A DNA stretch of 64,000 bases, from contig CAMVNQ010000018.1 in the NCBI GenBank assembly GCA_947168885.1, forward strand, positions 1 to 64,000, given 5' to 3'. Below the pieces are notes generated by a model that worked only from the letters and a program-made list of their open reading frames with translations, made no database searches and was not told the DNA's origin. Each line of letters begins with the position of its first letter. Within the stretch, counting starts at the first letter, position 1. This stretch comes from an uncultured Clostridia bacterium (GTDB lineage: Bacteria; Bacillota; Clostridia; Oscillospirales; Ruminococcaceae). The translations under genes were made by a program, and so were the position numbers. This document shows, piece by piece, positions 60,599 through 64,000 of the stretch.

Positions 60599-61807
60599 TC
60601 ATTTTCGTGATTCCTTGTTTTTCCGCTTATCCTCATACATTCTGCTGTCCGCAGTCTCTATGCTGTTCTGAAGACTTGCAGAGTCCTCCGCCATTGAGCA
60701 GCCGAATGATACCATCAGCGGTTTGTTCTTTATGCTGAACGAACCGACATTCTTTCTGAGGACATTCATGAACCTGCGCAGCTCAGCATCGGAGGAATCA
60801 GGTATCAGAGCTATGAACTCGTCACCGCCTGTACGGAATATGCGGCACTTATCAGGAAGCGTGCTCATCATCAGAGTCGCCGCCATTCTTATATACTCGT
60901 CACCGATCATGTGACCATAGGTATCATTGATGTATTTAAGCCGGTCACAATCGGCGGAGATTATCCCAACCGGAAAGCTCTCGTCACTCATGCTCTCAAC
61001 GTATTCATCAAAGCAGCTGCGGTTGTATGCACCGGTCATCGAATCGCGTATCGAGCGCTCTTTAAGCTCACGGCGCATAAGTTCCTGCTCTGTGACATCG
61101 TTGATAAGCGCTATAATACCCCTTACCCTTCCGTCGGCAAAGAACAGCGGTTCCTTTATGACCTGAAGAAACTCCTGCTCATCGTCGTTTTCCTCTATTA
61201 TATAAGATGTACCGACACCGGATTTTATGAGCGCCCGGTCGGATTCCATAGCTTTTCTCGCGTTATCCTTGTCCTTGCGTATATCAATATCAGTTTTGTG
61301 TTTTATTGTCCAGTTGGGGTCGCCATGCGTATCGAGGTGATGCCAGGTCTGAGACGAAAAGACATATCTTCCGAGTGAGTCCTTGAGGTATATGTTGGCG
61401 GGGAGTACTTTGAGCATACGCGAAAATTCGGAGAACGACACCGAGCTTATAAGCCTTTCGGCATTATGTACACGATTAATAAATATATCCGGATTTATCG
61501 GAAAAGCAAGACAATCTACCACCGCTCCGCCGAGAAATTTAACATCGTCCTGTACATTGTCCTTGTCCGTGATTATCAGAATAGCCGTAGAGTAGATGTA
61601 GTTGTTGTTCTCATTGACTGCATCTATAAGCTTACGCACATTTCTTCTCTTTGACGGACGTTCTATAAGTATAATGCTTACATCCGCGCCGTTACGAAGC
61701 ATTTCAAGCGCTTTGTCCGCAGAACTGACCGGAACAACATTATCCGTGAGCTTTTTTATATCCGCGATGCATCTCGTGCTGTCGCTGATGACCAATATAC
61801 TGCTCAT
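60599..61807 (-). CDS. Pseudo-receiver-PAS-GGDEF diguanylate cyclase
   Basis: Cytoplasmic protein of 402 residues. The N-terminal 115 residues have a receiver fold but lack its chemistry: the phospho-acceptor Asp is Glu (IILIERPS), the acidic pair is ISDS, and the switch Lys is missing (CLAFPIN). A PAS domain spans about 130-240 (VLPANIYLKDSLGRYVF and IIALINDVTEQEL). GGDEF is at about 250-395, with TGGDEF intact, so cyclic di-GMP synthesis is expected. The start at 61807 follows GAGGAAA. Single gene. Confidence 0.88.
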   Translation of the reverse strand: MSSILVISDSTRCIADIKKLTDNVVPVSSADKALEMLRNGADVSIILIERPSKRRNVRKLIDAVNENNNYIYSTAILIITDKDNVQDDVKFLGGAVVDCLAFPINPDIFINRVHNAERLISSVSFSEFSRMLKVLPANIYLKDSLGRYVFSSQTWHHLDTHGDPNWTIKHKTDIDIRKDKDNARKAMESDRALIKSGVGTSYIIEENDDEQEFLQVIKEPLFFADGRVRGIIALINDVTEQELMRRELKERSIRDSMTGAYNRSCFDEYVESMSDESFPVGIISADCDRLKYINDTYGHMIGDEYIRMAATLMMSTLPDKCRIFRTGGDEFIALIPDSSDAELRRFMNVLRKNVGSFSIKNKPLMVSFGCSMAEDSASLQNSIETADSRMYEDKRKNKESRK

Positions 61808-62015
61808 ACAACATTTCCTCTTTTTCAGACACAAAATGACATAATACTGTACCTGACTAAATACAGTTTTTGTTTATTATATCACTGTCGTCGGGTACTG
61901 TCAAGACTTTTTTGTGCAATTTACACACAGCAAAGCTGAATCAGTCTACCGTGCGTCATATCTGCGTTTCTTATACCGTTCGTATATAAATTATCAAAAA
62001 AATTTAAAAATTTTA

Positions 62016-62044
62016 TACACAAATGTCTGTTTTTATGATATAAT
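62016..62044 (+). promoter_or_regulatory. Promoter of STAS-MATE genes
   Basis: TACACA (62016-62021, 4 of 6 match), 17-bp spacer, perfect TATAAT (62039-62044). A 5' leader hairpin ACACGGA/TCCGTGT follows at 62058-62078. Confidence 0.6.
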
Positions 62045-62115: not shown

Positions 62116-62412
62116 ATGAACATCAAAAAGACTCAGAACGGAAACAAGCTTACGGTCGCTCTTGAAGGAAGACTCGATACAGTATCGTCTCCCGAACTCG
62201 AAGCAGACCTCAAGGGCTCTCTTGACGGTATAACAGATCTCGAATTTGACATCTCTGCGCTTGAATACATATCTTCGGCAGGACTTCGTGTTCTTCTGTC
62301 AACACAGAAGATAATGAACAAGCAGGGCGATATGTGCATTACCGGTGCAAACGAAGCTATAATGGAGATCTTCGACGTTACAGGATTTGTTGATATCCTG
62401 AACATAAAATAA
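62116..62412 (+). CDS. STAS-domain anti-sigma factor antagonist
   Basis: 98-residue single STAS domain of the SpoIIAA/RsbV type. The phosphorylatable Ser region is FDISALEYISSAGLRVLLST (about 43-62); Ser54 or Ser55 is the expected target. N-terminal strand GNKLTVALEGRLDTVSSPEL is typical. RsbV-like proteins are phosphorylated by an RsbW-like kinase; here the next gene encodes an ATPase domain of that family, with overlapping stop and start codons (TAATG). AAAGGAAA precedes the ATG. Confidence 0.92.
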   Translation: MNIKKTQNGNKLTVALEGRLDTVSSPELEADLKGSLDGITDLEFDISALEYISSAGLRVLLSTQKIMNKQGDMCITGANEAIMEIFDVTGFVDILNIK

Positions 62413-64000
62413 TGGATTCAGGCTTAAAACAAGATAACAGACTGTTGAAAAAGGGCTATTTCAAGACCCTTTTTCCTGTTATGTTCTCTGTTCTCGGAGC
62501 AACTATAAACGCGGTCATAGACGGCATACTTGTTTCACAGAAGCTCGGCAGGACCGCGCTTGCCGCAGTGAACCTCAGTATGCCGGTCTATTTTGTGTTG
62601 TGTACGATCGGCGCGCTCATAGCGGGCGGAGCCGCTGTCTGCTCCGCGAGAAAAGCGGGCCAGGACAATATGAAGTCCTCACAGGACTATTTCCAGGACG
62701 CTCTTCTCCTTTCTACTGTCATTTCTGTCATTGTTACCGCCTGCGGCATAATATTCTGCCGCAGCATAGCAGGCTTGCTTTCCGGCGGCGACCTTACAGA
62801 GCAGGTCTATGAATACTGCCTTATAACATTTATAGGCACTGCGCCTGCAATAATGATCTATATTCCCATAAATTATCTGCAGCTTGAGGGCAAGAACCAT
62901 TCAATATCCATAAGCGTTATACTCATGATCGCAACGGATATAATTCTTGACCTTCTGTTTATTTATGTTCTCAATATGGGGCTTGGCGGAGCTTCCGCAG
63001 CAAGTGTCGTTTCATCATTGGTGACCTGTATTTACGGTTTCATCGCCCTACAGTACAAAGAAACAAATTATCATCTCGGATTCACCAAACCGAGCAGGAA
63101 AAGGCTGCGCAAGCTGCTGAAATACGGTTCACCGCTCGCCCTCACAAACCTATTTGACGCAGTTAAGCTTTTTATGATCAACACCATAGTTATCATAGCG
63201 GCAGGTGAAAGCGGTGCGGTCGTATGGGCAGTATTAAACACGCTTTCAGAGCTGTCACTCATGATCGTAACAGGCGTTTCCCGCGCAGGTGCGCCTATGA
63301 TAAGCACCTGCCATACCGCCAAGGAGAACAGCCGCATACGCATACTCACCGCGCTCGAAGTCCGGACGGGTATGATACTTTCGGCTATTTTCGCTCTCGC
63401 CATTGCGCTTCTTAACAGACCGATAGGCGTAATTTTCAGCGTCAGCGAAGATCTTCTTCTTCCCCTGATATGCCTTGGCATAAGCGTTATTATCTCGACG
63501 ATATGCTGCGTCTGGGAGCGCCACTTCAACTCGATCGGTCTTATCGTCTGTGCCAATATCTCGTCTTTCGCAAGAAACTGTATGCTCCCTATAGCGGCAG
63601 CAGTCTTCCTGATGGTATCCGGCGCACCGATCTGGCTATTTCTTCCTTTATCGGCAGCAGGCTCCGCAGCGGTAATAGCTCTTTTGACATTCATAGAATA
63701 TTTGTACCACCAAAAGACATCTTATCCGCTTTCCAGAGTTCTTCTTCTCGACGATCACCTCGAACGCGAAAACAAAGTGCTCGATTTCTCGATAACCGCA
63801 GAAATGACAGAAGTATGTGACGCTTCTGATAAGATAAAGGCATTCTGCTCCGCGAACAACATGGACAGCAAAGCGACGATGAAGCTCGGACTTGCTATCG
63901 AAGAGCTCCTTAACGTTATAATCCTTAAGACTCCCGGATTAAAGAGTCTTGACCTAAGGGCATTTGCACTCGACGGAAACACCGGTCTGCGGATACACTA
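62412..64000 (+). CDS. MATE transporter fused to RsbW-like ATPase domain (partial)
   Basis: Reading frame is open from the ATG at 62412 to the last base; at least 529 residues, C-terminus outside the window. Residues 1-450 form about twelve hydrophobic helices of the MATE family (LFPVMFSVLGATINAVIDGI near 20-39, ISISVILMIATDIILDLLF near 166-184). After a short linker the cytoplasmic end (about 457-529) begins like the RsbW/SpoIIAB HATPase family: LDFSITAEMTEVCDASDKIK and KLGLAIEELLNVII, where EEL and the Asn form the N box. The ATP-lid motifs would be beyond the window. The start overlaps the STAS stop, so translation is coupled. Unlike typical MATE exporters, this one appears built to signal to the STAS protein; that is inference. 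Confidence 0.85.
   Translation, partial: MDSGLKQDNRLLKKGYFKTLFPVMFSVLGATINAVIDGILVSQKLGRTALAAVNLSMPVYFVLCTIGALIAGGAAVCSARKAGQDNMKSSQDYFQDALLLSTVISVIVTACGIIFCRSIAGLLSGGDLTEQVYEYCLITFIGTAPAIMIYIPINYLQLEGKNHSISISVILMIATDIILDLLFIYVLNMGLGGASAASVVSSLVTCIYGFIALQYKETNYHLGFTKPSRKRLRKLLKYGSPLALTNLFDAVKLFMINTIVIIAAGESGAVVWAVLNTLSELSLMIVTGVSRAGAPMISTCHTAKENSRIRILTALEVRTGMILSAIFALAIALLNRPIGVIFSVSEDLLLPLICLGISVIISTICCVWERHFNSIGLIVCANISSFARNCMLPIAAAVFLMVSGAPIWLFLPLSAAGSAAVIALLTFIEYLYHQKTSYPLSRVLLLDDHLERENKVLDFSITAEMTEVCDASDKIKAFCSANNMDSKATMKLGLAIEELLNVIILKTPGLKSLDLRAFALDGNTGLRIH

Follow-up and report, generated by a model that had tools for sequence, protein, structure and literature searches.

A MATE transporter with a predicted SpoIIAB-type tail in a candidate sigma-free partner-switch operon of an uncultured Clostridia bacterium

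Partner switching is known mainly for the control of sigma factors. In a 64,000-nucleotide stretch from an uncultured Clostridia bacterium with relatives in gut and rumen (positions 1 to 64,000 of contig C18, hereafter the window), a STAS gene is followed by the gene of a MATE transporter whose C-terminal tail is predicted to share the fold of the SpoIIAB and RsbW anti-sigma kinases (1L0O, 1TH8, 6M37). In contrast to these kinases, the tail lacks the catalytic Asn and Asp, is fused to a transporter and is encoded on a contig without a sigma factor match. We tentatively propose, at just under an even chance, that the operon is a partner switch without a sigma factor, controlling how a small molecule, perhaps of the acyl-amino-acid type, is made and exported.

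The SiaABCD system of Pseudomonas aeruginosa resembles this locus in being a co-encoded network with a non-sigma output. There the diguanylate cyclase SiaD is bound and activated by SiaC (PMC8457831). SiaC attaches to the SiaD stalk, whereas in this operon a transporter would be the output, acted on via its SpoIIAB-fold tail. The operon phosphatase scores 73 bits against the NCBIfam model of SiaA, below its cut-off of 700. SLC26/SulP transporters are also tied to a domain of the partner-switch type (PMC8256260), but there the STAS domain is fused to the transporter, while in this operon the fused part has the kinase fold and STAS is a protein of its own. The membrane domain is that of MATE exporters (PF01554, TIGR00797), from which the protein differs in its C-terminal switch domain, in its partner-switch operon and in missing the NCBIfam cut-offs of TIGR00797 (101 bits against 147.4) and FepA. 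The operon ligase shares the GH3 family with OlsH, the GH3-like lyso-ornithine lipid synthetase of planctomycetes. OlsH (NF052613) is its only NCBIfam match, at 74.6 bits, far under the cut-off of 620, and this identity was rejected. The OlsH paper touches on N-acyl amino acids in gut Clostridia; five Firmicutes GH3 homologues are listed in it (PMC12493201).

A literature search of titles and abstracts, with few subscription papers and no preprints, gave, among the papers listed, no description of MATE-HATPase fusions or of this operon, and no example of a MATE transporter gated by partner switching. An earlier reading of the window, made from the sequence only, had not recognised the architecture as a characterised one; this agrees with the literature searched, although the fusion is not unique and belongs, as one branch, to a broader family of MATE-HATPase proteins.

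Gene content of the operon

The source genome comprises 3.78 Mb in 32 contigs, and contig C18 was read beyond the window in the stretch C18:60000-72000 (L009). Five genes follow each other in the order STAS, MATE-pseudoSpoIIAB, GH3 ligase, SpoIIE phosphatase (with a HAMP-like part) and RsbW-like kinase:

62116..62412, plus strand: STAS protein of 98 amino acids, RsbV/SpoIIAA-like, with the Ser motif SSAGLR (S53, S54); Pfam STAS 55 bits, NCBIfam ant_ant_sig 67.8 bits (cut-off 53.45)
62410..62414, plus strand: TAATG, in which the STAS stop codon overlaps the MATE start codon; read in the sequence
62412..64000, plus strand, ending at C18:64196: MATE-pseudoHATPase gene (594 amino acids); MatE match and full-length orthologues
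62412..63701, plus strand: MATE membrane domain, residues 1-430; Pfam MatE in two stretches
63732..64000, plus strand, on to about C18:64142: predicted SpoIIAB/RsbW-fold pseudokinase domain, residues 441-577; hhalign, AlphaFold and VIA-align
63900..63917, plus strand: degenerate N-box, E497 E498 L L N501 V502, with V502 at the Asn position of RsbW; hhalign register and orthologue columns
C18:64177-65808, downstream of MATE: GH3 ligase; Pfam GH3 domains
C18:65769-67493, downstream of GH3: SpoIIE phosphatase, its HAMP-like part below the cut-off; Pfam
C18:67490-67897, downstream of the phosphatase: HATPase_c_2 protein (RsbW-like kinase) of 135 amino acids; Pfam

The STAS frame, the TAATG overlap and the MATE frame starting at 62412, as described by the sequence-only reading, are all present. 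It had proposed to follow the frame past 64,000 and to search it with Pfam. The frame indeed runs on to C18:64196, and MatE repeats score over the curated cut-off (60.5 bits against 24.9), but PF13581 gave no match at E values up to 1, and the only other Pfam-A match of the 594-residue protein was at chance level.

A partner-switch gene set is thus encoded together, namely a STAS protein with the Ser motif, a SpoIIE-type phosphatase and a HATPase_c_2 kinase. Within the STAS protein, S54 is presumably the phosphorylated Ser, by analogy with SpoIIAA. SSAGLR is present in 23 of the 27 plus-strand STAS frames of 33 orthologous loci. E..N, D.G and GGLG are intact in all 20 HATPase frames identified there, while the three phosphatase motifs are kept in 26/26, 26/26 and 18/26, the first two being fully present. 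The N, middle and C domains of the GH3 ligase score 175.5, 77.8 and 28.3 bits in Pfam (cut-offs 23.6). The GH3 motifs (TSGTTG, YVCSE and YRIGD) occur in it, and variants of them were read by eye in 27 other full-length GH3 proteins aligned; exact patterns proved too strict, matching 8/28, 24/28 and 7/28. An acyl-amino-acid type of product would be a guess from the family.

None of the 33 Sigma70_r2 matches of the genome lies on C18, and no sigma factor gene was found in the operon. HATPase_c_2 matches over the cut-off number eight genome-wide, and a sigma match lies within 1 kb of just one of them, the copy on contig C4; this copy also has a STAS gene beside it, an arrangement like that of SpoIIA/SigF. 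The composition of the operon suggests that export may be switched by protein phosphorylation.

Fold and catalytic positions of the tail

The C-terminal portion of about 137 residues aligned with the RsbW-like kinases of the same operons in hhalign (probability 94.4, E 9.2e-8), whereas a STAS control gave a probability of 0.6, that is, no alignment. The tail of the orthologue L081 (149 residues) was modelled with AlphaFold from a 30-sequence alignment (A2, without L069, L082 and L093), reaching a predicted local distance difference test score of 87.2 and a predicted template modelling score of 0.81. In the VIA-align ranking of this model, SpoIIAB (1L0O and 1TH8, 14.5 each), RsbW (6M37, 14.5), UsfX (8IH8, 14.2) and Rv1364c (3KE6, 12.7) came first, followed by LvrC of Leptospira (11.5) and SiaB (6KKO, 10.4). 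Because SpoIIAB and RsbW structures head the ranking and histidine kinases score lower (7.8 or less), the modelled tail is assigned to the switch-kinase type. A profile search of the sequences of solved structures with the tail gave a single chance-level match (E 0.29). On the fusion of a MATE protein to an RsbW/SpoIIAB-type domain, which the sequence-only reading had put forward, hhalign and AlphaFold with VIA-align agree.

The motif register was taken from the hhalign alignment of the tail with the operon kinases, and residues were read in the columns of an alignment of 32 orthologues (L082, with a broken frame, was excluded; L069, cut by a contig end, entered the motif columns but not the identity comparison, for which n=31). 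The Glu pair E497/E498 is invariant (32/32). At the N-box Asn position (502, four residues after E498) all 32 have V or L, and at the G1 Asp position (530) all 32 have Y, C or I. The Asn of EELLN (N501), present in eight of the 32, stands one residue before the RsbW Asn register. Some orthologues carry an Asp at 531, one residue later, and a gap in the hhalign alignment makes the placement of the Asp approximate. The tail is better conserved than the membrane part, with a mean pairwise identity of 49.3 against 44.5% and a higher value in 369 of 465 pairs. Degenerate yet more conserved than the domain to which it is attached, it has the sequence pattern expected of a pseudokinase retained for binding.

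Conservation of the loci and the wider fusion family

Orthologues of the MATE fusion occur in 4 of the 59 other relative genomes searched, at 33-62% identity, and a scan of genome contigs retrieved 35 loci, among them those of the Lachnospiraceae isolates V9D3004 and AC2028 (L074 and L080). With the window locus added and L100-L102 (partial or plain MATE) removed, 33 loci were scored, L082 and L071 being kept in the gene order count. Among the loci with enough sequence, GH3 lies downstream in 29/30, SpoIIE in 22/23 and the kinase in 17/23, while STAS lies upstream in 20/28; a survey of the STAS-MATE pair, as the earlier reading had suggested, shows a conserved unit. In 12 of the 20 upstream-STAS loci the STAS gene overlaps the MATE start or ends at most 21 bases from it, with a 1-base overlap in four, the window locus included. 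Seven of the 20 have space for one extra gene between the two, which in the one tested (L075) encodes an ATPgrasp_ST protein. The phosphatase and kinase are fused into one protein in L079, L082, L088 and L093.

Full-length MATE-HATPase fusions at 16-26% identity were found in other genomes. In a class-level scan, in which up to five candidates per genome were scored, the match ran through the tail in at least 17 of 246 genomes, the own one included, among the matches listed. Outside the orthologous set, a STAS, SpoIIE or HATPase gene lies within 6 kb at 24 of 39 MATE-HATPase loci; among plain MATE loci this holds for 1 of 24 (Fisher p 3e-6). By type, the numbers are 12 against 1 for STAS, 18 against 0 for SpoIIE and 10 against 0 for HATPase. 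Both sets are top-scoring loci and no random sample; L011, whose tail is not HATPase-like, was excluded from the 39. Several stretches are short (e.g. L055, L056, L066), so that neighbours may be missed. One locus, L107, has the same five genes reordered (STAS, GH3, MATE-HATPase, SpoIIE, HATPase), with a degenerate tail.

Nonribosomal peptide synthetase (NRPS) genes adjoin other MATE-HATPase loci (e.g. L061, L062, L114-L116), and L111 combines NRPS with switch genes. Elsewhere the neighbouring enzymes vary by locus and include a STAS-fused phosphotransferase, formyltransferase, GNAT, LPG-synthase-like, ATP-grasp and FGGY kinase proteins. In several branches of this Clostridia family, the kinase fold of partner switching appears to have been turned into a receiver on an exporter, adjoining small-molecule enzymes such as GH3 ligases, NRPS, phosphotransferases and ATP-grasp proteins.

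The N and D residues are kept in the tails of some relatives (L053, L103, L110 and L112, and also L012), and active kinases may exist among family members with such intact motifs. A rule by which the tail would be degenerate whenever a separate kinase gene is present was rejected, as L053, L103, L110 and L112 break it; of these four, the motifs of the neighbouring HATPase were read for L053 alone.

STAS is fused to an APH-type phosphotransferase in the MATE-HATPase loci L051, L053, L058, L059, L091, L092, L103 and L106, with a HATPase domain fused as well in L053 and L103. In L052 and L055, the STAS and MATE-HATPase genes stand beside large genes that resemble contractile-injection or phage-tail parts by eye.

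Possible targets of the switch and surroundings of the operon

Starting from what is read directly, namely the gene order and its conservation, the lost catalytic residues, the STAS Ser and the kinase and first two phosphatase motifs, together with the modelled fold of the tail, a cycle can be proposed. By analogy with SpoIIA, Rsb and SiaABCD, the operon kinase would phosphorylate the STAS Ser and reset the switch, and the SpoIIE phosphatase, once activated, would strip the phosphate. Unphosphorylated STAS would then dock on the MATE tail, which could not phosphorylate it, and the docked STAS would change transport by the MATE domain, whose cargo would be the GH3 product. Because the catalytic positions of the tail are lost and the operon has its own intact kinase, a signal running from phosphatase through STAS to MATE as output is likelier than one running from MATE to a kinase as input. 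A broader proposal, possible but clearly more doubtful than that for the operon itself, is that degenerate SpoIIAB-fold domains form a general receiver module linking transporters and enzymes (MATE exporters, AMP-ligases) to partner switching. STAS freed by a sensor phosphatase would gate export and synthesis without a sigma factor, the GH3 operon being a phospho-gated make-and-export unit and its MATE protein a transporter gated by partner switching. If true, this would give gut and rumen bacteria a direct route from a sensor phosphatase to metabolite secretion.

Two AMP-binding ligases on contig C6 of the same genome support the idea that switch domains are plugged into effectors. The first (L159 6240-8249, C6:52239-54248) has a HATPase-like C-terminal tail without the N-box Asn (PF13581 19.5 bits, under the cut-off of 27.4), and its gene comes immediately after two others, one for a STAS protein and one for a STAS-phosphotransferase. 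The second (L158 6706-8646) is fused to a STAS domain, beside SpoIIE phosphatase and RsbW-like kinase genes.

Several observations weigh against a switch acting through the MATE tail. The STAS-kinase distance correlation, 0.72, is above that of STAS with the tail, in a weak test on 16 operons with one near-duplicate dropped. Upstream STAS was not found in 8/28 orthologous loci nor the kinase in 6/23, and one of the 20 STAS genes counted (L091) is a weak 32-residue match. Within the set limits, L068, L085, L086 and L094 lack both, although in L086 a STAS domain lies 1.7 kb upstream, slightly past the limit; from L068, GH3 and the phosphatase downstream are missing as well. Nucleotide binding might persist in a HATPase fold that has lost the usual residues, and the intact-looking tails of L053, L103, L110 and L112 stand beside a HATPase gene. 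Of 197 genomes of the order, five, the own one included, have GH3 matches at E 1e-15 or better, and around those of the other four no MATE-HATPase was found. Two of these (G407 and G359, of the same family) hold STAS, GH3 and SpoIIE-HATPase together within 17 kb (L150, L151), while G358 and G463 (L152, L153) hold GH3 without switch genes. GH3 with switch genes but no MATE-HATPase indicates that the switch does not always act via MATE, and that GH3 or another target may be controlled too or instead. In L150 and L151 these genes adjoin a protein of about 2400 amino acids with a signal-like start by eye. A second GH3-like gene of the own genome (C11:69394-70899, L154 8395-9900) has no switch genes within its 17-kb stretch; genes resembling B12-binding or radical-SAM enzymes by eye flank it.

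The switch might therefore act mainly on GH3, or on another target in trans, with MATE as a co-expressed exporter whose tail is a sink or anchor setting the amount of free STAS. We regard this as rather unlikely, though L150 and L151 fit it, as do the STAS domains fused to phosphotransferases or AMP-ligases at other loci; Pfam finds neither a STAS nor a HATPase domain in the GH3 protein, and it is MATE that bears the switch-kinase tail, whose conservation exceeds that of the membrane part. The sequence-only reading had instead taken the tail for an active kinase, its activity on STAS set by the membrane domain's ligand or transport state. The SpoIIAB-like fold, the invariant Glu pair and the N and D of relatives such as L053, L012 and L103 speak for such a kinase, but with both catalytic positions lost in all 32 orthologues, no PF13581 match and a separate operon kinase with intact motifs (20/20), a kinase in this tail is probably wrong. 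Control of its activity by the transporter is likewise improbable for this protein and may still fit the motif-keeping relatives. Equally improbable, in our view, is a MATE sensor whose pseudokinase tail would hold STAS according to cargo load and so report the cargo level to a distant sigma factor or enzyme. Such a role would suit a tail without catalytic residues yet with a fold seen bound to STAS proteins in solved complexes, and the 18 STAS and 33 Sigma70_r2 matches of the genome make targets in trans possible; C18, however, has no sigma factor match, and the C4 copy is the only one of the eight HATPase_c_2 matches over the cut-off with a sigma match within 1 kb. Control of export through the tail, with MATE as output, is the reading we prefer.

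Three further features border the operon:

62016..62044 (L009 2017-2045), plus strand: promoter-like site upstream of the STAS gene (TACACA, 17-base spacer, TATAAT; TG ahead of the second hexamer); consensus scan, 10/12 matches
C18:67904-67938, directly after the kinase gene: terminator-like stem of 15 pairs; consensus match only
60599..61834, minus strand: divergent GGDEF gene, a neighbour of the operon, with a PAS-like part; Pfam GGDEF 93.4 bits, PAS_4 18.4 bits (below the cut-off of 23.1)

The promoter-like site is a consensus match only and weak taken alone, as the scan gave 14 sites against 10.2 (sd 3.1) in shuffled sequences. Beyond the terminator-like stem lie a response-regulator/GGDEF/HD gene and then a gene whose product, judged by eye, looks like a histidine kinase.
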